Source of the DNA: Labrys monachus
GTDB taxonomy: Bacteria > Pseudomonadota > Alphaproteobacteria > Rhizobiales > Labraceae
Assembly: GCF_030814655.1 (NCBI RefSeq)
Contig: NZ_JAUSVK010000001.1
Span: 1,941,501-2,005,500 of the forward strand
Direction: 5' to 3'
Length of the DNA: 64,000 nucleotides
Position 1 is the stretch's first letter, and every line of letters begins with the position of its first letter. This document shows positions 27,172-37,306 of this stretch, piece by piece. Below the pieces are notes generated by a model. It was not told the origin of the DNA and searched no databases. It worked only from the letters and a program-made list of their open reading frames with translations. A program made the position numbers and the translations under genes.

Positions 27172-28148
27172 TCAGAACAGAACGGCAGGAGACAACCGGT
27201 CCTGCGAATTCGACGGCCTTGCCAGGCTGAGAAGATCGACCGGATGAGGATCTTCCGTCGGCTTCATCACGGCCGCGTATAAGGAAAAGAAGCTTGCGGC
27301 GGGATAACGGACAAGGGCGTTGCACCTCGCCAGCAGCACCATTTCGATCAGGGCGTCGTCCAGGCGGGCTGCCGCGTCGGGGCCGTGATGAAGCTCTCCG
27401 TGCCCCGGCGGTCGATAGGGCTTCGGGCGGCAGATCACGCCCGGAATCGTGCGTGTTATTTCCGACTGGACATCGCTGCTGTCCGTGCACAGCAGCACCA
27501 ATGCCTGCTTGCCCAGACGCTCGCGCGCGACGTCGACGGCCCGCCGGATCCGCATCATCGCCGTGCCGAACGCTTGCCAGGAGAAAGCATGCCCCATGAT
27601 GTCGCCGCCATTGCCGTGGCGGACATGCAGGCCGATAAAGGGGGCGTCCTCGACATGTGCTTCGAGGAAGGCGTCGGCGGCATCGGCCACCCGCCTGACG
27701 GGGCGCAGGGCTTCGAAACACGAGCGGGCATCGCCGAACGCGACGATGCCATCGTTGATGCAAGCGTTGAACACCACCGTTGAAGCGGCGACATCCGCCC
27801 CGGACCGTATCAGCGCGACGGCCCGGATGCGCTCTTCGGGAAAGGCATCCGCCGGCACCTGCCAGGGAGAGGCGATCAGTGCCTCTTTCTCCCATATCGC
27901 GGGATGGGGCGAGGCAGGCTGGCGGTGTCGATCGCTCGATCCGCGATGAGTGAAACGCCGGCGAGTTCACCAGCCGGCTCGAAACAAGCCGGAAATAGAT
28001 TGCTGTCCCCAACGGAATAGAGCGACCGACGCCAGTCGACGACGAGTGTGCGCCGCGTATCCCTTGCGAACTTCCATGCAGCAGCGAGACAAATCAGGCG
28101 ATCCCCAAGTCCGGTCCTGCGAAGGGAAACGACATATCGTCGGTTCAT
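27172..28148 (-). pseudogene. NodZ-like fucosyltransferase, frameshifted
   Basis: Two adjoining frames together encode a GT23-type protein. The N-terminal part starts MNRRYVVSLRRTGLGDRLI (28148 down to about 27890), with a GLGDRL motif typical of NodZ. The C-terminal part carries FIGLHVRHGNGGDIMGH, the arginine-containing site of NodZ, then LLCTDSS and later a conserved tail. The frame change falls near 27893; restoring one base within CGATATGGGAG would give RYWEKEALIASPWQVPADAF and rejoin them. Either a true pseudogene or an assembly error. It lies next to the glycosyltransferase cluster, separated by a porin gene. Confidence 0.8.
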
Positions 28149-28270
28149 CAGTCGAGTTTGGCCCTTCGGAGGGGGGCATTGCCGCCGGTCATCGGACCCG
28201 ATCGGGCAACGCAGCCGGTTTTCGCGGGAATAGCGCTGCGGTTCATCCCGTCCGGGAGGCAAGCGCTCAC

Positions 28271-28300
28271 AAAAAAGCCCGGCTGTTCGCCGGGCTTTTG
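28271..28300. terminator. Bidirectional intrinsic terminator
   Basis: AAAAGCCCGGC-GAACA-GCCGGGCTTTTTT on the minus strand: an eight to nine base GC stem flanked by A and T tracts. It ends transcription of the porin gene from the right. Confidence 0.9.
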
Positions 28301-28322
28301 CTCTCATATCGAGAAAGCGCGA

Positions 28323-29039
28323 TCAGAACTTGTAGCTGATGCCCGCCGTCGCGGTGGTCTGGTTCCAGCCGGCCTTGACCGGGCCATCCAGCGTCTGGAA
28401 GCTCTTCTTTTCGAAGTCGCTGTAGCGGACTTCGATACGGCCGATCCAGTTCTGGGTGAAGGCATATTCGATGCCGCCGCCCGCCGTCCAGCCGACATGC
28501 GTGTTGCTGGAGCTCTCGCCGGCGGTCGACAGCTTGGCATCGGCGAAGGCGACGCCGCCCGTCACGTAGAGCAGGAGATTGTCGATGGCGTAGCCGGCCC
28601 GCAGGCGGGCCGAACCCTGCCAGTCGCTCTTCAGCTTAAGTGAGCCGGTGACAGTGCCGAGATCGTAGCTGTAGAAGTGGTCGCCCTTGAGGGCGGAATA
28701 GTCGATATCGCCTTCGGCGCCGACCACGAACTGGTTGAACTGGAAGTTGTAGCCGGCATGGGCACCGCCGATGAAGCCGTTCATGTTGAAATGATCGGCC
28801 GGCGGCCCGTTTTCCGAGAACAAGGAACTCTGGTCGTCGTGCTCACGACCCCAGCCATAGCCGGCATGCAGACCGATATAGGGGCCGGACCAGTCGAAAG
28901 GCAGGACGACGGGAGCCGCAGGCTCGACCGCCTGGGGAGCAAGATCGGCTGCCGAAGCAGGCTGCGATGCGAAAAGCAGGGCTGCTCCAGCTGAGAGCAC
29001 CACGGCCATCGCCGTCGTTTCAAAAAGACCCTTCGACAT
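28323..29039 (-). CDS. Outer membrane beta-barrel porin-like protein (Omp25/Omp31 family)
   Basis: Surface protein of 238 aa. A Sec signal peptide ends near FASQPASAADLA, followed by a proline-rich linker and the alphaproteobacterial OMP_b-brl motif DWSGPYIGLHAGYGWG near residue 50. Alternating strands lead to the C-terminal TATAGISYKF with terminal Phe, the assembly signal of barrel proteins. A good promoter lies upstream and a strong terminator downstream, so it is an independent, probably well-expressed gene. Confidence 0.93.
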   Translation of the reverse strand: MSKGLFETTAMAVVLSAGAALLFASQPASAADLAPQAVEPAAPVVLPFDWSGPYIGLHAGYGWGREHDDQSSLFSENGPPADHFNMNGFIGGAHAGYNFQFNQFVVGAEGDIDYSALKGDHFYSYDLGTVTGSLKLKSDWQGSARLRAGYAIDNLLLYVTGGVAFADAKLSTAGESSSNTHVGWTAGGGIEYAFTQNWIGRIEVRYSDFEKKSFQTLDGPVKAGWNQTTATAGISYKF

Positions 29040-29245: not shown

Positions 29246-30040
29246 TTACTCGTCGGCATGCCGTATCTCCAAGCCCGGAAGGCCCCAGCATTGCGCGCCC
29301 ATGTCGAGGGCCATGATCCCGAAGCCCTCCGTCTCCATCTCGCCCTGTCCCCAGAGGGGATGATGCGGGCGAATCCTGGGGTTGGCCACGCCATAGGGAA
29401 AGGGCGGAAAAATCAGGCCGTCGCGGTGGAGATCGGCCTTGACCAGCAGCATCGTGCCGCCGACGGCGTCCAGGCGGACGGCCTCGCGCCCGCGGAAATC
29501 CTCGAGCGTGGCGTTTGCGTGGCGGCACCACGCATTGCGATCGAATGTGGGGCCGCCGGGTTCCCTGACGCAATGGGGATGGACGATCTGAAAGCCAGTC
29601 GCCAGCAGGCGGGAAAGGATGTCGGCGGGATAGTCGACGACATCCACGTCGAGCCAGAGAACCCAATCCTCCTCGCGCAGGGCGCGGAACAGCAGCTGGT
29701 TGCGCGCCCGGGCGAGGATGGAGCGCCGCAATTGCTGGATTTCGGGCGCCCAGCGCGGCACACCGTCCGGAATCCTGAAGCCGTAGTCGCGCTTGACCAG
29801 CGCCACCCGGGCCGCGCGCTGCGCGAGCGCCGGCTCGGCCTCGCACAGCCTGTCCCAGCTGCCGTCGGTGCTGTCGCTTTCCAGGATCCCGAGCGAAAGG
29901 CATTCCCGCGGCCATTCCAGCCTGCCGAGCAGCGCGGTGTAGCGGCCGAGATGCGAGGCGGCATTTTTGAGCGGCGTCAGGACGAGAACCGACGGGTATG
30001 TGGCCTCACATGCGGGCGGGGGAGCGGGGGAGGCCTGCAT
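29246..30040 (-). CDS. Anp1-like (GT62) glycosyltransferase
   Basis: Protein of 264 aa related to the fungal Anp1/Mnn9 mannan polymerase family (GT62). Family traits: VLVLTPLKNAASHLGRYTAL near residue 18, LESDSTDGSWD, VLWLDVDVVDYPADIL (DxD-like metal site near residue 130) and a long HPHCVREPGGPTFDRNAW loop. It lacks the N-terminal membrane anchor of fungal members, so it is cytosolic. It is last in the leftward cluster, 55 bases behind the ATP-grasp gene. It probably adds a mannose-like sugar to the cluster's product. Confidence 0.85.
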   Translation of the reverse strand: MQASPAPPPACEATYPSVLVLTPLKNAASHLGRYTALLGRLEWPRECLSLGILESDSTDGSWDRLCEAEPALAQRAARVALVKRDYGFRIPDGVPRWAPEIQQLRRSILARARNQLLFRALREEDWVLWLDVDVVDYPADILSRLLATGFQIVHPHCVREPGGPTFDRNAWCRHANATLEDFRGREAVRLDAVGGTMLLVKADLHRDGLIFPPFPYGVANPRIRPHHPLWGQGEMETEGFGIMALDMGAQCWGLPGLEIRHADE

Positions 30041-30095
30041 CGTTGTTCACCAGGAGATGGGCGGCGGGCACGGGGGTAGGATAGCAGGATCCGTT

Positions 30096-31028
30096 CTAGA
30101 TCGCCTCGGCCCGGGTCCGGTCGACGAGGACGCGGGCGCAGGTGCGGAAGGCGTCGAACGGCGCCGCCAGGTCCTCGATGCCGAGCCGCTCCTTGTAGCC
30201 GGCTGCTGCTGGACTGGAGAACATCCAGGTTCCCCCGCCGGGGTTGACCTCGAGGAGATAGAACTCGCCATCCTTGGCCCGAAGGATGTCGCAGGCCTGG
30301 AGAGCCGCCTCCGGCATGGCTTCATAGGCGGAGGCCGCGAATGCCAGGATCGCCGGATCATGGCTGACATAGACATTGGTGTTGGGAGGCGTCGGCATGA
30401 AATCCTTCTGCTCGAACGGCCCTTCCCGGCCGTCCAGCGCCAGGGGGAGGGTCGATTCGCGCAGATAGGAAAAGATCGGGACGCCGAACAAGGTCAGGAC
30501 GCGGCAGGTCATCGCGTAGCCGCAATCGACGAACTTCTGGGCGATCATCGGTCCCTGCCGTCCGGGGTGACGGTCCGGGAAATCGGATGGTGCGCGGTAG
30601 CGGACGTGCTCCGTCCGCAGGAGTTCGACGCCCTGGCCCCAGGAAGCGAGCGCGAAGGACGGCTTCACCACGGTGTAGGGGCCGTAGGCGGCAGGCGAGA
30701 GGAGGGTCCAGGGACAGATTTCCTCGAAAGGCGGCACGGCGATGCCGGCGGCCGCGAAACGCTGGATTTCCGCCAGCTTCGACATCGGCTGCCCGGCATA
30801 GACCTTGCCGCGATCCGGACTGAAGCTCAGCAGCTTGATCGGCGAAAAGACCAGGGACGGCCGGGCCGCGGCCTTCTTGCGGGTATAGGACGAACGGGAC
30901 GCATTCGACGCGATGTACACTTCGATATCCGGTGCCATCGCCTCGATGTGAGCCTTGATCGCCTCGAAGTCCGCGATGTCCTGCCAGCCCTCGGTATGGA
31001 CCAGCACGAGGTTCCGGCTTGCCGCCAT
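30096..31028 (-). CDS. ATP-grasp family protein
   Basis: Protein of 310 aa with an ATP-grasp fold. The nucleotide-binding strand is TVVKPSFALASWGQGVELLR near residue 130, a second strand region is MIAQKFVDCGYAMTCRVLTL, and the metal-binding carboxylate and asparagine are in EFYLLEVNPGGGTWMFS near residue 255. Such enzymes form amide or ester bonds through acyl-phosphates. Encoded between GT2 and GT62 genes, it may crosslink or extend the peptide of 32320-32499, as graspetide ligases do. A role in polysaccharide decoration is the main alternative. GGAG precedes the ATG by 8 bases. Confidence 0.82.
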   Translation of the reverse strand: MAASRNLVLVHTEGWQDIADFEAIKAHIEAMAPDIEVYIASNASRSSYTRKKAAARPSLVFSPIKLLSFSPDRGKVYAGQPMSKLAEIQRFAAAGIAVPPFEEICPWTLLSPAAYGPYTVVKPSFALASWGQGVELLRTEHVRYRAPSDFPDRHPGRQGPMIAQKFVDCGYAMTCRVLTLFGVPIFSYLRESTLPLALDGREGPFEQKDFMPTPPNTNVYVSHDPAILAFAASAYEAMPEAALQACDILRAKDGEFYLLEVNPGGGTWMFSSPAAAGYKERLGIEDLAAPFDAFRTCARVLVDRTRAEAI

Positions 31029-31043
31029 GGGTTCAACTCCGCA

Positions 31044-32162
31044 TCAGGGCGCGACGCGCGCGGGGCCGTTCAGGGCGATCGCCTTGATCCGGTAGGCGGC
31101 ATCACCCGGGGCCAGCCGCGCGGCGGCGGCGAACTGCGCCGCAGCCTCCCGGCGACGGCCGAGGCGCAGGCAGGCGAGGGCCGCCAGTTCGCAGGCCTTC
31201 TCGCGGAAGATGGCACGGTCATAGGCCAGCAGCCCGTCGCACAGATCCTCCGGATCGATGGCCTGCAGCCTTTCCGCCATCTCGAGGGCCTCGCCCGGCC
31301 GCCCCGCCCGGAGCAGGGCCTGCCCGCGCAGAAACCACAGGGCGTGGTCGTCCGGCATCCGCGCCAGGCCGGCCTCGATGACATCGAGGGGATCGCCGCC
31401 CAGTTCGGCCTCGATCCGCGCCAGGAACTGGACGATGAGACTGGCCGGAGCCCGCTGGTCGTTCGAAAGATCCCGATCCGCGCGCGCCAGGCCCTCGCGC
31501 GCCGCCGCGACCGCCTCCTGCACGCGGCCGAGCGCCGCGAGGGTCTCGGCCATGTGATGCCAGCAATAGACCCGGTCGGGATCGGCGCGAACCGCGATTT
31601 CAAGCAAAGCAAGGTTGCGGCCATGCTTGTGCGACTGGTCGCCGTCATAGCCGATGTGATCGAGTTCCACCTCGGTCCGGACGATGGGCAGCCCCTCGCG
31701 GGCGCTGAGCAGCCTGACGGCGGGCTTGATCGTTTCGTGGATCTTCCCGGCAAAACGGATGCGCGGGTCGCTGCGGAACAGCCGCCACTCCCGATAGCGC
31801 GTATAGCCGGTCTTGGGCCGGAAGCGGACGAACCCCGCGACGGCGCCGGGATCGATATAGTCCGCGACGACGCCGCCCTTCGGCAGGCCCAGTCGTTCGT
31901 CGGCGTCGATATACAAGATCCAGTCACCGGAAGCCGCATCGAGGGCGACATTGCGCGCGGCGGCAAAATCATCGTTCCAGCGGTGATGCAGCAGACGGAC
32001 GCCTGGCGTCCGTCCGGCGATGCCGACCGTATCGTCACTCGAACCGGTATCGACGACGACGATCTCCTCGACGCGTCCCGACAGCGATTCGAGGCAACCT
32101 GCCAGGAAACGCTCTTCGTTCCTGACGATCATGGCCGCGGAGACACGAACCCGGCCCGTCAT
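31044..32162 (-). CDS. Glycosyltransferase family 2 with C-terminal TPR-like repeats
   Basis: Protein of 372 aa. The N-terminal GT2 (GT-A) domain shows SAAMIVRNEERFLAGCLESL, IVVVDTGSSDDTV and the DxD motif WILYIDADERLGL. The C-terminal half (from about residue 200) has helical repeats with YCWHHMAETLAALGRVQEA and LWFLRGQALLRAGRPGEALE. This layout is shared by peptide S/O-glycosyltransferases of the glycocin class and by polysaccharide enzymes. It follows the small peptide gene and its terminator. An in-frame upstream ATG at 32252 would cover the terminator and is less likely. Confidence 0.88.
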   Translation of the reverse strand: MTGRVRVSAAMIVRNEERFLAGCLESLSGRVEEIVVVDTGSSDDTVGIAGRTPGVRLLHHRWNDDFAAARNVALDAASGDWILYIDADERLGLPKGGVVADYIDPGAVAGFVRFRPKTGYTRYREWRLFRSDPRIRFAGKIHETIKPAVRLLSAREGLPIVRTEVELDHIGYDGDQSHKHGRNLALLEIAVRADPDRVYCWHHMAETLAALGRVQEAVAAAREGLARADRDLSNDQRAPASLIVQFLARIEAELGGDPLDVIEAGLARMPDDHALWFLRGQALLRAGRPGEALEMAERLQAIDPEDLCDGLLAYDRAIFREKACELAALACLRLGRRREAAAQFAAAARLAPGDAAYRIKAIALNGPARVAP

Positions 32163-32249
32163 GGGTGGGAACCACGAATCGTCGCATGGCCGATAGGATG
32201 GAGCCACGCTCCCCACGACGGCTGCAAGAGCATCACAGGCTACCGAAAA

Positions 32250-32290
32250 CAAAAAAATCAGGCGAAAGAGATATCCTCTCCATCGCCTGA
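32250..32290 (-). terminator. Intrinsic terminator after the small peptide gene
   Basis: On the minus strand TCAGGCGA (32290-32283) pairs with TCGCCTGA (32265-32258), an inner GAGA/TCTC pair extends the hairpin, and TTTTTTTG follows. It lies 30 bases after the stop of the 59-codon ORF and before the GT2 gene. This is the usual arrangement for a precursor made in excess over its modifying enzymes. Confidence 0.85.
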
Positions 32291-32319
32291 CCGACGTTCA
32301 AGCACCGGAGACTTGCAGA

Positions 32320-32499
32320 TCAACCAGCGTTCCCGGCCATCGAAAGCGCATGGGACGTCTTCATTTCCCGGATCGGAAAGGAGACGACCTTCGGCGCCTC
32401 ATAGGGCGTCTTCGCAGCGAGCGAACGAACCTTTGCCACGACATCCCTGGAGACGGCGTCAACTTCCTTCAGGCGAAGCGAATTTGCGTTAGCACCCAT
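32320..32499 (-). CDS. Candidate RiPP precursor peptide, 59 aa
   Basis: Small ORF read ATG to TGA, starting MGANANSLRLKEVDAVSRD and ending SMAGNAG. It has no cysteine; it contains several serines and threonines (targets for a kinase or glycosyltransferases) and one tyrosine in KTPYEAP. Support for a real gene: a TTGACA promoter with 17-base spacer upstream, GGAAGG seven bases before the ATG, and a strong terminator just after the stop. It is flanked by an HprK-related kinase and PqqD-like protein on one side and GT2, ATP-grasp and GT62 genes on the other. The amphipathic first half could be a leader and the second half a core. I recognise no family; function is inference. Confidence 0.7.
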   Translation of the reverse strand: MGANANSLRLKEVDAVSRDVVAKVRSLAAKTPYEAPKVVSFPIREMKTSHALSMAGNAG

Positions 32500-32559
32500 T
32501 CAACACCTTCCGCGAGCCATCAAGGCTCATCTAGAATCCTCATTCCGCGAACGATATAT

Positions 32560-32588
32560 TTTGTAACCACGAGTTGCCGAACTGTCAA
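32560..32588 (-). promoter_or_regulatory. Promoter of the 59-aa peptide gene
   Basis: Perfect -35 TTGACA (32588-32583) with exact 17-base spacing to TACAAA (32565-32560; 4 of 6 -10 matches). It overlaps the stop codon of the HprK-like gene and lies about 60 bases before the peptide start, so the peptide can be transcribed separately from the upstream operon. Confidence 0.7.
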
Positions 32589-33466
32589 TTGAACGAACAA
32601 TCCGGCACGCCGCCCGCGCATGCACCCTCGACGCGTTCTGCGGCCCGTTCCGGACATCCGACCTGCAGCCTGTAGGCGGGCGCCGCTGCCAGCGCCAACC
32701 TCAGGCCGGCGGCCCCGGCGCCGCTGATCCGGTCGGCGCCCAGGATCAATCCCCGGCGGAAGGCTGCATCCCGGTCGAGCAGCGAGATGGCGCCGCGACT
32801 TCCGTCTGCGCGGTCGAGGAAGAACATCGCCGCGACGGGGCCGGCCTGCAGCCGCCAGGGACTGCCGAAGGACCGGGGGTCGACGGCATGCACGTTTCTC
32901 GACAGGTCGACGGGGAGGAGCGGAGCGTTCGCGGCGAACCCGCGCAGGAAGGCCGGCAGGGCCGCAGGTTTTTCGTCGATGCGTATGGTGCGGGGCAGGG
33001 CGCACAGGCCGCCGAGCCGGACGGCGGCCCAGGCGTCTCCCTCGATCTGCCAGCCGCGGGCCATCAGCGCCAGGGCGATCCAGCTCTTGCCGGCCCGCGC
33101 GCCGCCGACCAGCGCGATCCGCTGCTCGGCGGGGCTGCGAAGGAGGGCCGCCGGCAGGATCAGCGCGTCGCGTTCGGCGGCCGTCGCCTGCCGCGATATC
33201 CGCGCATCGACCTGCAGCAGGCATTCCCGCAGCGACCCCAGCGCCGCCAGCCCGGATGGGAACAGCAGCCGGTAATGGCCGCCTGCCGGCGCGATCACCA
33301 CCTCCTCCGGCACAGGTTCGGGTCCCGGCAGCTCCGGCGTCGTGCGCAAGGCCTCGAGCGGCCGCCCGATCGTGCCGGGAGCGATGACGAAGCTGCGCTT
33401 CAGGCCGCGGACGAGGACGGGCTGCAAGACGTCACGAGACCTTGTGAGGCGAGCGAGAGGAGGCAC
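32585..33466 (-). CDS. HprK-related kinase (HPr-rel-A type)
   Basis: Protein of about 293 aa related to the C-terminal kinase domain of HPr kinase/phosphorylase. The P-loop reads ALVGGARAGKSWIALALM near residue 145, and AWAAVRLGGLCALPRTIRI and MFFLDRADGSRGAISLLD follow at positions expected for the fold. HprK relatives next to PqqD-type proteins occur in the HPr-rel-A system and in lasso-peptide clusters, where they phosphorylate the precursor. GTG at 33466 overlaps the PqqD gene by 67 bases; a TTG further in would remove most of this overlap. Probable substrate: a serine of the nearby peptide. Confidence 0.82.
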   Translation of the reverse strand: MPPLARLTRSRDVLQPVLVRGLKRSFVIAPGTIGRPLEALRTTPELPGPEPVPEEVVIAPAGGHYRLLFPSGLAALGSLRECLLQVDARISRQATAAERDALILPAALLRSPAEQRIALVGGARAGKSWIALALMARGWQIEGDAWAAVRLGGLCALPRTIRIDEKPAALPAFLRGFAANAPLLPVDLSRNVHAVDPRSFGSPWRLQAGPVAAMFFLDRADGSRGAISLLDRDAAFRRGLILGADRISGAGAAGLRLALAAAPAYRLQVGCPERAAERVEGACAGGVPDCSFN

Positions 33467-33696
33467 GCGTCGACCTCGCCGCGAGGCGGCGCCGAAAGGT
33501 CGAACAGGTCCTGCAGGACATCCGCGATGGCTTCGGCGCTGCTTCGCCCGTCGCAGAGCTCGAAGACGGCCGCGGCCGTCAGGTTGAGATAATGCACGCT
33601 CTCGGAGACATGGTCATAGATGACGTAGCCGTCCGGAACCTCGTTGCATTCGAAATCTCCCATGCGCTTGAAATAGGCTTGGCTTTCGTCGGTCAT
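33400..33696 (-). CDS. PqqD family peptide-binding protein (HPr-rel-A type, RRE-like)
   Basis: Protein of 98 aa with the winged-helix PqqD fold, a RiPP recognition element that holds a precursor leader. The signature is DGYVIYDHVSESVHYLNLTA, then AVFELCDGRSSAEAIADVL. The start at MTDESQAYFKRMG is preceded by GGAG. It lies 37 bases behind the interrupted GT4 gene and overlaps the kinase gene, so the two are probably made together. Its presence is the strongest hint that a ribosomal peptide is handled here. Confidence 0.87.
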   Translation of the reverse strand: MTDESQAYFKRMGDFECNEVPDGYVIYDHVSESVHYLNLTAAAVFELCDGRSSAEAIADVLQDLFDLSAPPRGEVDACLLSLASQGLVTSCSPSSSAA

Positions 33697-33733
33697 TCGT
33701 CGCTCCGTTCCTCCGTTCAGGCTTTGCCTGCTT

Positions 33734-34792
33734 CTAGGCCATCGCAAGCGATCGGGAAATTCGAATCACGAGGTTTTCCCTCGCGTGATGCCGCCGCACC
33801 CAGTCCAGCCCGAGTGCCGCGCGCCGCTGCCGCTCGGCGGGCTGGGCGAGGGCGTCGCGGCAGGCCTCGGCGAAATGGTTCGGCGCCGCTGCGATCCACC
33901 CGCCGGTGCCGGCGGGCCAGCCGAGCCCTTCGGCGCCCGTCGGCGTCGAGATGCTGGCGACGCCGTGCGCAGCCGCCTCCAGCAGCTTGATGCGGGTGCC
34001 GCCGCCGGCCTGCAGGGGCGCGAGGGCCAGGGTCGAGCGGCGATAGAGGGCGCTGACGTCCCCGACACGGCCGAGTACCGAAATGCGGGGGTGGCGGCCG
34101 AGGGCGGACACCGCCTGCGGCGGCTGCGGGCCAGCGATCAGGAGGCGGCAGGCCCCGCCGCCGGCGGCCCTCAGGCGCGGCAGCACCGTGCGGCAGAACC
34201 AGAGGATGCCCTCCGCATTGGGCGCATAGGAGAGCGAGCCGAGGAACATGAGGGTCGCGCCGTCGTCGCGCGCGGCGGCCCGTGGCGGAATCTCGACCGC
34301 GTTCGCCATCGGCTCGCAGGCGAGGCCGGGGTGCCGGCGGCCGAGCAGGCGGGCTTCCTGCCGGCTCGCCACGAAGACACGCCGGAAGCGCGGGCCGAAA
34401 CGCGCGACGAGCGCGTCGCAGGCCCGGCCCTCCTGCTCCAGCCAATCGGCGCGCATCCGGCCTGCGCCGTCACGCGCGAGCGCGAGACGGGCCAGGGAGG
34501 AGAAGGCGGCGCGGTCGTCTTCGTCCAGATCCAGCGTCGCGGCGGTTCCCGGCGGGACGGCGTCGAGGCAGGGCGCCATATAGGAGCGCCCGATATGAAC
34601 GAGATCGGGCGCGCAGGCCTCGATGAGGCCCGCGATCTGCGCCAGGACCGGAGCCGACAGGAAGCTGGCGAGGCTCGGCCGGCCATAGGCGCGGAAGGCT
34701 TCGAGGCGCATGCTCTCGTCGGAGATCCGCGACAACAGGGCGAAATGCGTGTCGTTGCGTCCACTGACCGGGACGATGTGGAGGCGGGCGCC
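33734..34792 (-). pseudogene. GT4 glycosyltransferase, 3' part, cut off by IS630
   Basis: Reads from GARLHIVPVSGRNDTHFALL through LDLDEDDRAAFSSL, ATLMFLGSLSYAPNAEGILW (start of the GT-B C-terminal domain), RISVLGRVGDVSALYRRS, and GTRIKLLEAAAHGVASISTPTGAEG, the nucleotide-sugar site of GT4 enzymes. Removing the IS630 element and one TA copy joins it in frame to the 5' part at 35853-36029, giving a 411-aa protein. Translation from inside the IS could make a fragment starting in IS sequence, lacking part of the acceptor domain. Confidence 0.92.
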
Positions 34793-34794
34793 TA

Positions 34795-35852
34795 GAGCGG
34801 AATTTGTCTGAGTGGAATCGGAAGGGATTCCACTGGATGGCTTAGTGTGATTCATAGGTTTCCGGGCTATTCCGGAGATGAAGCATGACGAAGCGTGGTG
34901 AAGCCTATTCGCAGGATTTGCGAGATCGTGTGCTTGGGGCGCTGGATAGCGGGATGTCGGCGAGCACAATCGCACCAATCTTCAGGGTGAGTGTGTCCTA
35001 CATCTACAAGGCGGCCGCGCGGCGGCGCGCGACGGGGGAGGTCAGTGCCCGCCCCCAGCGCAATCATGTTCCGCTCAAGCTTGCCAAGCATGAAGAGGTT
35101 CTGCGGGCCAAGGTCGCGGCTGATCCGGATGCGCGTGTCGCGGATCTGCGGGCCTGGGCGGAGGAAGAATTGGGGGTCAGCATCAGCCATGCCCCGATGT
35201 GGCATATGCTCAAGCGGCTTGGGCTGACATATAAAAAAAGACGATCCACGCCAGCGAGCAAAAACGCCCCGATGTCGCGGCCGCTCGCCGCAAATGGCAC
35301 AGCAACCAAATCTGGCTGAGGCCCTCGCGTCTGGTCTTCATTGACGAGACCTGGGCCTCGACCGCGATGGCGCGCCACTACGGCAGGTGCAAGCGCGGAC
35401 AGCGCCTGATCGACTACGTGCCGCATGGCCATTGGAAAACCACGACCTTCATTGGCGCTCTGCGCAGCGGGGGATTGACAGCTCCCTGCGTGCTCGACGG
35501 CCCAGTCAACGGCGATTGCTTCAAGGCCTATGTCGCGCAGATCCTCGTTCCCACCCTCAATTACGGCGATATCGTCATCATGGACAATCTGAGCAGCCAC
35601 AAAGTCCCGGGTGTGCGCCAAGCCATCGAGGCCGCAGGGGCGGAACTGCTTTACTTGCCCGCCTACTCCCCCGATCTCAATCCGATCGAGAACCTCTTCG
35701 CAAAGCTCAAAGCTCTCCTGCGCGCGGCTGCAACCCGATCCATCCACGATCTCTGGGACGAAATCGCCAAAACTCTCCCGCGCTTCTCCCCGTCCGAATG
35801 CAGAAATTACTTCTCTAATGCTGGATATTCTACAGTCTGAACAATTTCGCTC
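34795..35852 (+). mobile_element. IS630-family insertion sequence (copy 1, 1058 bp)
   Basis: Terminal repeats GAGCGGAATTTGTCTGAGTG and, reversed, GAGCGAAATTGTTCAGACTG match imperfectly. Both ends are flanked by TA (34793-34794 and 35853-35854), the target duplication of Tc1/mariner-IS630 elements. It is inserted in a GT4 gene. It differs from the copy at 60995 at only four positions that I could find. Confidence 0.95.
34885..35840 (+). CDS. IS630 family transposase, two frames joined by -1 frameshift
   Basis: The first frame (34885-35319) encodes the HTH domain (STIAPIFRVSVSYIYKAAAR) and linker. The second (35367-35840 as an ATG frame, open further upstream) encodes the DDE domain: LVFIDETWAS, VIMDNLSSHK and YSPDLNPIENLFAKLK. 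The frames overlap at an A7G run (35233-35240). A -1 slip there reads TYKKKTIHASEQKRPD and leads into the DDE frame without a gap. Both copies in the window have the same arrangement, so this is programmed frameshifting and not decay. Confidence 0.92.
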
Positions 35853-36029
35853 TAGGCCCTGCAGGAAGGCATCGGCCTGCGTCGGGCCTCCGGCCACGGG
35901 GGCGACGACGACGTCGACCTCGGCGATCCGGCATAGAGCCTCCAGGAACAGGCCCATGCGCATCGCCAGGCCGTTTCCCGCGCGCGCCGGCACGATCGGG
36001 CTGATGAACACCGCCTTGCGCGGGCGCAT
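35853..36029 (-). pseudogene. GT4 glycosyltransferase, 5' part, cut off by IS630
   Basis: The first 59 codons, MRPRKAVFISPIVPARAGNG onward, containing the GxGxAxR-type N-terminal loop of GT-B enzymes (GNGLAMRMGLFLEAL). Its ATG overlaps the stop of the GT71-like gene (ATGA). The frame runs into the IS after AFLQGL. The remainder lies at 33734-34792. Confidence 0.92.
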
Positions 36030-37306
36030 CAGATATCCCCGTCATTCGCCAGCACGTAGCGGCCGGCGAATATCCACTGCCTCCAGGCGGTATCGGAGGC
36101 GTGGGAACTCTTCCTCACGCCCTCCGCCGCGGCATAGGCCTCGATCGCGGGGTCGGCGACCGAGGCGCCGTACCAGTGCCGGTTGGCCTGGTATTCGAGG
36201 CGCCAGCACGGGCCGAACGCATCGTGGATGACGAGGTGAAGCGCTCCGTCCTTCTCGTCGCACCACCAGTTCATGCGGTCGGCGGCCCGGCTCCTGCCGA
36301 TCTCGCCGTCGGGCAGCAATTCGAGCGTGACGGCGGCCTGTCCGGGAACGATGAAGGCGAGCGTTCGGAAGGAAGCCCATTCCCGTTCCGTCCGAAGCGC
36401 ATGCGCGCTCCTCGGAGGGGCATGGAACACCAGCCCGTTCCAGCCCTTGCGGAGCTGCGCGAGCGCGGTCATGCAGGCTTCAAGGCCCACGAAGCCCGCC
36501 GGTTCCTCCTGCCCGCCGGCGTAGCGCCATTTGGCGCCGGTCCTGTGCTGGAAGAGCACGCGTCCCTCGAAATCATGCTGGTGGAGGCAGAGGCCGACAT
36601 CGGGCAGCGGCCGATGGGGAATGACGGCGAAGCGCGAGTCCGCCATGAGGAGCCCCAACAGGTAGGTCTCCTTGTCGCCATACATCATGCGGTAGTAGAA
36701 GTCGGCGTGCCGGTTGAGATGCAGCGCGAGCTGAATCGCCGGCCATTTCCTGGCCTTGTGGATGAGCAACTGGCCGGATTCGATCGCCGGCGCGGAGCGC
36801 GGCGCCAGGCCGCAGGCGTCCCAGACCGGGTTTTCGGGAATCAGGTCGACGATGTCGGGCCAGAGGACCGCCCCCGTCTCCCGGTAGTCCGCCCATTCGA
36901 ACACCTCGGCGGGATCCCTGGTCGGAACCTGGTCGGCGTCGAGGAGCAGGACCTCCTCGAAGGACGACCAGGCGAGCGCATGGGCCTTCAGCTGCCAGCC
37001 GTCGACGATCCAGGCATGATCTGCGTCGCCCGCGGTGGCGTCGACGACGCGCACGCCGAAGGCGCCGAGCATTGCCGCCATCCTCGCCGACATTTCGGCG
37101 GGGCCCAGATGCCATACTTCGATGGGCAGGCGGCACTGGAGAGCCTCGCGCAGGACATGCACGAGCACATAGGCATTGGTGAAGAAGGAGGGTCCCCCGG
37201 CGCAGACGACGATCCCTCGACCGGCAAACCGCGCTCCAGGATAGGGCTCCAGGCTGTTCAGACGTTCCGCCAGCAATGTCTGCTGGCGCGCATTCTCGAC
37301 GATCAT
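36029..37306 (-). CDS. MNN1-like (GT71) mannosyltransferase-related protein
   Basis: Protein of 425 aa resembling the alpha-mannosyltransferase family of fungal MNN1 (Mannosyl_trans3). Motifs: RGIVVCAGGPSFFTNAYVLV near residue 30, LPIEVWHLGPAEM, EEVLLLDADQVPTRDPAEVF with the DxD site near residue 125, and ESGQLLIHKARKW followed by YGDKETYLLGLL. There is no signal or anchor, so it is cytosolic. The C-terminal 100 residues are an extra beta-rich region ending in a WRQWIFAGRYVLAND stretch. It is first in the leftward cluster and translationally coupled to the GT4 gene. Confidence 0.84.
   Translation of the reverse strand: MIVENARQQTLLAERLNSLEPYPGARFAGRGIVVCAGGPSFFTNAYVLVHVLREALQCRLPIEVWHLGPAEMSARMAAMLGAFGVRVVDATAGDADHAWIVDGWQLKAHALAWSSFEEVLLLDADQVPTRDPAEVFEWADYRETGAVLWPDIVDLIPENPVWDACGLAPRSAPAIESGQLLIHKARKWPAIQLALHLNRHADFYYRMMYGDKETYLLGLLMADSRFAVIPHRPLPDVGLCLHQHDFEGRVLFQHRTGAKWRYAGGQEEPAGFVGLEACMTALAQLRKGWNGLVFHAPPRSAHALRTEREWASFRTLAFIVPGQAAVTLELLPDGEIGRSRAADRMNWWCDEKDGALHLVIHDAFGPCWRLEYQANRHWYGASVADPAIEAYAAAEGVRKSSHASDTAWRQWIFAGRYVLANDGDI

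Follow-up and report, generated by a model that had tools for sequence, protein, structure and literature searches.

A conserved short peptide gene beside a PqqD-type protein and a SunS/GmaR-like glycosyltransferase in Labrys monachus and its relatives: probable precursor of a glycosylated ribosomal peptide

Introduction

The described family nearest to the peptide system reported here is that of the linear polyphosphorylated peptides (LPP) of Bacillota (Popov et al., 2026; PMC13381572). As far as the accessible part of that paper goes, LPP clusters are rich in glycosyltransferases, hold one to three precursors each, and include a discrete RiPP recognition element (RRE), an HprK-like kinase and a PF14907 nucleotidyltransferase, together with an SpI peptidase and an MsbA-type transporter, but no cyclase. 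In the LPP recognition element LppB, N33 fixes the proline kink of the leader, D70 bonds the leader tyrosine and Y60 lies in the pocket. The same portion of the text describes an HprK-like kinase in paeninodin-type lasso clusters, a gene also found in part of our loci. Fusions of RREs to GT2-type glycosyltransferases are reported in the available part of PMC12710340, and hence the pairing of an RRE with a glycosyltransferase is not new as such; in the open-licence literature, we found no paper on an RRE combined with a SunS/GmaR-type GT2 in Alphaproteobacteria.

Here we analyse 64,000 nucleotides of the Labrys monachus genome (the window), in which a reading made from the sequence alone (the sequence-only reading) had taken a short open reading frame (ORF) for the precursor of a ribosomal peptide. 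Compared with LPP as described in the accessible text, the system shares the discrete RRE, a YxxPxV leader motif and N33/D70-type contact residues, and part of its loci share the HprK-like kinase and the nucleotidyltransferase; both systems are glycosyltransferase-rich, and no cyclase was among the families listed for the present loci. It differs in its host range (one order of Alphaproteobacteria), in its constant enzyme (a SunS-type GT2), in the motif tail after YxxPxV and in the existence of a Phe-type variant. Lasso peptides with a discrete B1 RRE (TfuB1/FusB1, paeninodin) resemble it in RRE class and YxxP leader recognition. Glycocins, made with the S-glycosyltransferases SunS and ThuS, resemble it in having a helical-tailed GT2 beside a small peptide gene and give the best fold match, but the GT2 described here falls below the SunS cut-off, most of its peptides lack cysteine, and an RRE is present. 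Finally, the HPr-rel-A system of NCBIfam (TIGR04352 / TIGR04353) likewise joins PqqD-type and HprK-related proteins, although the best scores among the proteins scanned lie under both cut-offs (52 bits where 200 are needed, and 31.8 where 35 are).

Layout of the locus

The features of the window are as follows; genomes are referred to by number, G000 being the window's own (6.92 Mb, one contig), in which the peptide matches once.

32320..32499, minus strand: gene of a putative 59-aa precursor peptide, with homologues in 13 loci and purifying selection
32560..32588, minus strand: promoter-like TTGACA-N17-TACAAA (TTGACA 32588-32583, TACAAA 32565-32560), from the letters; TTGACA recurs upstream in related loci
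32506..32511, minus strand: Shine-Dalgarno-like GGAAGG
32251..32292, minus strand: terminator-like hairpin and seven T, between peptide and GT2
33400..33696, minus strand: PqqD-type protein, a discrete RRE (Pfam PqqD 3.2e-9; profile matches to TfuB1 6jx3, PqqD 5sxy/5vrd and LppB 9x8z)
32585..33466, minus strand: HprK-like protein with the Walker A sequence GGARAGKS kept (homologues in G068 and G082; PEPCK/HprK fold in the model)
31044..32162, minus strand: GT2 with a TPR tail, a SunS/ThuS/GmaR-like protein glycosyltransferase by profile and fold matches
30096..31028, minus strand: ATP-grasp protein, from weak ATPgrasp_ST / Ddl matches below cut-off
29246..30040, minus strand: Anp1-type glycosyltransferase, presumably GT62 (Pfam Anp1 3.1e-43; also in G002, G082, G068, G160 and G334)
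36029..37306, minus strand: Mannosyl_trans3 glycosyltransferase (Pfam 3.4e-33; also in G082, G068, G160 and G334)
28323..29039, minus strand: outer-membrane beta-barrel protein (Pfam OMP_b-brl), of unsure membership in the system
27172..28307, minus strand: NodZ-type fucosyltransferase gene, which we take to be GT23, split in two frames (27876-28307 and 27172-27858)
33734..36029, minus strand: interrupted GT4 gene (the GT4 of G002 matches at 36062-35853 and 35008-33716)

The 59-aa minus-strand ORF is present as the sequence-only reading had given it and translates to MGANANSLRLKEVDAVSRDVVAKVRSLAAKTPYEAPKVVSFPIREMKTSHALSMAGNAG. It carries YEAPKV at residues 33-38, a predicted RRE-binding motif, followed by Ser40 and by a Gly-Asn at the C-terminus. 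The signals claimed around it are likewise there in the letters: the promoter-like element upstream, GGAAGG (32511-32506) at a spacing of 6 nt from the ATG, and, after the stop, a hairpin (32292-32256) with a run of seven T (32257-32251). The PqqD-type, HprK-like, GT2, ATP-grasp and Anp1 neighbours had also been named correctly, the ATP-grasp protein being identified by weak matches only.

The HprK-like protein of the window had no Pfam or NCBIfam match by itself; its predicted model matched PEPCK first (2e-7) and HprK next (1e-4), while two of its relatives (one from G068 and the one from G082) matched HprK_rel_A below cut-off. The beta-barrel protein was considered as a further part of the system, but with 13 matches in the genome its adjacency is weak evidence. 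On the plus strand, an 841-aa open frame (29967-32489) runs antisense to the GT2 and ATP-grasp genes and is probably a high-GC shadow ORF.

A family of related peptides

Searching 100 relatives with the peptide gave matches in six genomes at E <= 0.1, with real peptides in G000, G001, G002 and G003 and a second, weaker copy on the other replicon of G001. A profile of five peptides matched 8 of the 397 genomes of the order at E <= 0.01, namely G000-G003, G246, G346, G082 and G318. The window's GT2 was found in 12 of the same 397 genomes at E <= 1e-40: the seven with real peptides, plus G136, G186, G068, G160 and G334. In these last five, we read the DNA upstream of GT2 directly, and each proved to hold a peptide carrying the family motif. 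The family thereby comes to 21 homologous peptides, spread over 13 loci in 12 genomes of a single order, with seven tandem copies in G068, three in G160 and two loci in G001 (G001a and G001b).

Several matches were set aside. In G068, the first search had hit a stretch with internal stops (the true G068 peptides lie elsewhere), and the matches in G087 and G318 fall inside frames of 720 and 600 aa, so that G318 is not counted as real. Outside the order, three matches came from G725 and G419: one is a CutA-like frame containing YECPAIISFPI, and the other two span 18-20 residues. The matches in G560 and G559 read like an ArsR-type regulator and a ParE-type protein. In class-wide samples of 385 and 308 genomes, we saw no true member beyond the order, using a profile that misses G136-type peptides; rarer or more distant members may exist there. 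A plasmid search with GT2 at E <= 1e-20 returned nothing, and on viral contigs a scan picked out GT2-like stretches at 32 loci, with identities of 26-63% over part of their length.

The motif [YF]xxPxxx[ST][FYM] occurs in all 21 peptides and is followed by 16-25 residues in 20 of them. Eight peptides are Tyr-type and 13 Phe-type, after the first motif residue. Every peptide has an asparagine among its last 10 residues, and 12 have N-x-S/T near the C-terminus, although ten of these 12 are paralogues from two genomes. Tyr-type C-termini consist of Gly-Asn and then 1-2 residues; all seven G068 copies have NGSGV, with the last three residues varying. Cysteine is absent from 19/21 peptides. It is present in the G186 peptide (L095:10653-10925, minus strand), in which a 12-residue unit occurs three times, as three exact QGVNCLNVASVT repeats, and which is a candidate multi-core precursor. 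None of the peptides scanned matched a library model (Pfam, NCBIfam). The discrete RRE with a YxxPxV leader, as in the accessible description of LPP, is found with the eight Tyr-type peptides, whereas the 13 Phe-type peptides differ; the full LPP motif YxxPxVLxHQxIxFETxxS does not appear in the peptide alignment.

Among ORFs of 40-110 aa in 14 loci, 23 of 1,886 carry the family motif near the C-terminus (20 members and 3 background), a count made with a motif picked after the family had been seen; the 21st peptide, that of G186, is outside it and fails the distance rule alone. The sequence-only reading had set down beforehand that a lack of conserved homologues beside the gene pair, or substitutions unlike those of coding DNA, would speak against its proposal, which withstood both checks: homologues are conserved, and purifying selection is what we found. 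The peptide genes of G000 and G002 have a pN of 0.26 and a pS of 0.49, and dN/dS in six pairs of G068 copies ranges from about 0.07 in the most constrained to 0.46 in the least. Conservation and substitution pattern together rule out a chance ORF; on this comparative evidence, the short ORF is a real, conserved gene.

Conserved partners

In 11 of the 12 genomes with a close GT2, the peptide gene precedes GT2 by 23-157 nt and is read from the same strand. The twelfth is G003, where the two are about 47 kb apart on the same contig and the peptide has the RRE and a GT10 gene at its side. Over the whole family, 12/13 loci have a PqqD-type RRE no more than 6 kb from the peptide; in G136 it is encoded on the other strand, and in G001b it lies 3' of the peptide. 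The stretch fetched for G001b contained no GT2, and that for G001a (L009) no RRE. The sequence-only reading had expected homologues beside a PqqD/HprK-like pair, which holds for the PqqD-type member but not for the HprK-like one, found in just five of the 13 loci: G000, G082, G068 (two), G160 (two) and G334. In two cases, the copy adjoining the RRE (L096:15743-16573 and L098:4703-5596) has the Walker A lysine replaced while a second copy alongside keeps it, and the lysine-less copies are possibly non-catalytic partners. The PF14907 nucleotidyltransferase occurs in G082, G068, G160 and G334.

The ATP-grasp gene is similarly patchy. Close copies adjoin the peptide in five of 13 loci (G000, G001a, G002, G246 and G346), the four outside the window being 66-72% identical to its own; in G003, the gene is beside GT2, and G136 has a more distant copy about 3 kb from the peptide. 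Distant relatives of the ATP-grasp protein occur in 15 further genomes of the order. Profile searches of their loci, and of those of further G246 copies, brought up neither peptide nor RRE nor GT2, except in G136, where they found RRE and GT2 but missed the peptide, which we found by reading. Profiles also found none of the three in the two ATP-grasp loci that a collection of named genomes gave outside Labrys, those of Brucella sp. 21LCYQ03 and of a Xanthobacteraceae MAG. Judged by gene content, the constant partners of the peptide are thus the PqqD-type RRE and GT2, not the HprK-like or ATP-grasp proteins.

A fucosyltransferase gene is near the peptide in eight of 13 loci, of the NodZ type in G000, G002 and G001b and of the GT10 type in G003, G246, G082, G160 and G334. 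A gmd gene and a second epimerase gene adjoin G001a, and in G000 a single gmd scored over cut-off, at another place in the genome.

Predicted leader recognition

A profile of 12 RREs from these loci had its top match in TfuB1 (2e-5), a lasso-peptide RRE whose structure was solved with a YxxP leader, followed by PqqD and by LppB (9x8z, 0.002). The residue equivalent to LppB N33 is asparagine in all 12. The D70 equivalent is Asp or Glu in 7/7 Tyr-type loci and in two of five Phe-type loci, the other three having Met. At the Y60 position, all seven Tyr-type loci have Phe and all five Phe-type loci have Tyr. Tyrosine and phenylalanine are thereby swapped reciprocally between the peptide and the RRE pocket. 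Fisher tests of these RRE residues against peptide type gave 0.0013 and 0.045, values that ignore relatedness and come from few, related lineages. In a GT2 tree in which most forks are unresolved, the Phe-type G186 falls inside a group with Tyr-type genomes (96/96), which suggests that the Tyr/Phe switch took more than one event. From the motif and the contact residues, we infer that the RRE of each cluster binds the [Y/F]xxPx[V/I] leader motif of its peptide. The natural pair of Tyr and Phe variants should be useful for studies of RRE specificity.

The GT2 and a possible glycosylation step

The best solved relatives of GT2 by sequence profile are GmaR (7e-38) and SunS (1.2e-29). Its predicted model (mean pLDDT 87) matches SunS/ThuS at 3e-19 to 6e-18, with a TM-score of 0.57-0.60 over the query, and the next family in the fold search follows at 6e-8. 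Against the SunS model of NCBIfam, scores were 76.3 and 78.4 bits with a cut-off of 350, and GT2 is not a member by that cut-off. GmaR adds sugars to Ser/Thr of flagellin and SunS to a Cys of sublancin. Since these relatives act on polypeptides, the first sugar step is assigned to GT2, and since 19/21 peptides have no cysteine, its acceptor must differ from that of SunS. Glycosylation by GT2 would be the best-supported step of the pathway, its chemistry being argued from these relatives.

Search for a peptidase, an exporter and a cyclase

Pfam scans of neighbouring proteins covered 131 ORFs from these 13 loci (129 out of 204 called ORFs, plus two by hand), with the best 25 of 33, 56, 36 and 30 families per list and full tables for 30 ORFs. 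The families listed for these 131 ORFs included neither a cyclase nor a radical SAM, signal-peptidase-type, C39-type or ABC-exporter membrane family, and among them was neither a leader peptidase nor an exporter dedicated to peptides. Nor did they include an SpI-like peptidase or MsbA-like transporter, as in the available description of LPP, or the Asn-synthetase-like cyclase and transglutaminase-like B2 peptidase of lasso peptides. The transport and hydrolase families listed were ABC_tran in two proteins (one member each of A10 and A13) and MFS_1 in one (A13); G246 also has an EamA-type protein and an alpha/beta hydrolase (Hydrolase_4). None of these was taken as part of the system, as none directly adjoins a peptide gene and none recurs. 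With no leader peptidase or exporter among the families listed, processing and export are left unexplained.

Putative transcription signals

Of the eight Tyr-type loci, five have TTGACA in the 110 nt before the peptide, whereas random stretches of that length from the loci contain it in 1.0% of cases (p 6e-9; leaving the window out, 4e-7). In G246 it stands at -71, and in the other four (G000, G001a, G002 and G346) at -86 to -89. None of the 13 regions upstream of Phe-type peptides contained TTGACA, and four had TTGAC. In the window, the HprK-like gene has the TGA of this hexamer as its stop codon; TTGACA is however not merely a by-product of coding, since G001a has it with no HprK-like gene found upstream. 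A consensus promoter scan of 30000-35000 gave 0 promoter-like sites under a rule that demands a final T, which TACAAA does not have.

The stretch holding the hairpin folds at -27.7 kcal/mol (z -2.85), with 1/200 shuffles equally good; a terminator scan listed 3 sites elsewhere and not the hairpin. Hairpins 3' of the peptide are also found in G001a and G002, without the seven-T run, and among the 21 peptides only that of G000 has both. As the hairpin and T-run lie between peptide and GT2, a separate peptide transcript in excess of the enzymes, as the sequence-only reading proposed, is plausible from the sequence.

Proposed function and alternatives

The ORF is probably the precursor gene of a linear ribosomal peptide (RiPP) that becomes glycosylated. 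Its general features are those of RiPPs: a short precursor beside candidate modifying enzymes, a conserved leader and a variable C-terminus. A conserved RiPP-type precursor is well supported by sequence comparison, and the original idea of a ribosomal peptide precursor gains from the PqqD-type gene in 12/13 loci, the position directly before GT2 in 11/13 and the tandem arrays in two genomes. We infer that the neighbours modify the peptide. The RRE would hold the leader motif as a beta strand in its cleft, and GT2 would attach a first sugar to the C-terminal segment that follows this motif. GT4, Anp1, Mannosyl_trans3 and a NodZ/GT10 fucosyltransferase, varying by locus, would probably extend the glycan, and the ATP-grasp ligase, or the HprK-like kinase with the nucleotidyltransferase, may add a further group. 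Steps beyond GT2 are guesses, ordered by the constancy of the neighbours. Such a system would give the peptide family a name and an enzyme set, joining leader recognition of the lasso/LPP type with a SunS/GmaR-type glycosyltransferase.

Perhaps the HprK-like kinase instead makes the defining modification, giving a phosphorylated linear peptide of the LPP type in which GT2 is secondary. RRE and HprK-like protein do occur together in five loci, four of them (G082, G068, G160 and G334) with PF14907, which amounts to part of the LPP set in the accessible text of PMC13381572, and the Tyr-type peptides carry the YxxPxV motif. We nevertheless consider this unlikely: an HprK-like gene was not found in 8/13 loci while GT2 is adjacent in 11/13, two HprK-like copies (L096:15743 and L098:4703) are without the Walker A lysine, and the LPP motif differs from that of the peptide family. 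Slightly less likely still is a peptide that keeps its leader and stays attached as a cytoplasmic anchor (carrier or primer) for an oligosaccharide. This would fit the scans, with no leader peptidase or exporter among the families listed, as well as the short C-terminal segment with Asn in 21/21 and the clustering of up to five glycosyltransferase genes around the peptide (GT2, GT4, Anp1, NodZ and Mannosyl_trans3 in the window), but the pairing of a leader with an RRE, and final residues that vary in G068, resemble RiPP precursors, and tandem arrays suit precursors better.

It seems more improbable than either that the peptide is an unmodified regulatory small protein or a structural adaptor of a glycosyltransferase operon. 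Its small size, the recurring promoter element and the constant position 5' of GT2 might be read that way, yet the motif matches RRE ligands, the RRE contact residues covary with it, and there are tandem copies and an internal repeat. As to the product of the preferred glycosylated RiPP pathway, Anp1, Mannosyl_trans3 and the NodZ- and GT10-type fucosyltransferases are homologues of eukaryotic N-glycan enzymes. An N-glycan-like mannose/fucose oligosaccharide might be built in the cytoplasm on the C-terminal Asn, by GT2 and then Anp1/Mannosyl_trans3/NodZ/GT10, to give a surface or secreted glycopeptide that could mimic host glycans; we hold this to be about as doubtful as the anchor.

Interrupted genes in the window strain

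The frames of the peptide, RRE, HprK-like, GT2 and ATP-grasp genes are open in the window strain. The GT4 gene is cut: an IS630-type transposase (34885-35840, plus strand; HTH_Tnp_IS630 and DDE_3 in two frames) sits inside it, between the two matches to the G002 protein, and homology in the 35008-33716 match is clear from about 34840. The NodZ-type gene is split here and intact in G002 (Labrys sp. WJW; 333 aa). With GT4 interrupted and NodZ split, the full pathway may be impaired and its activity in this strain is uncertain. Transposase remains also lie near the G346 cluster, where two Mutator-type fragments were seen at L024 2140-3210.
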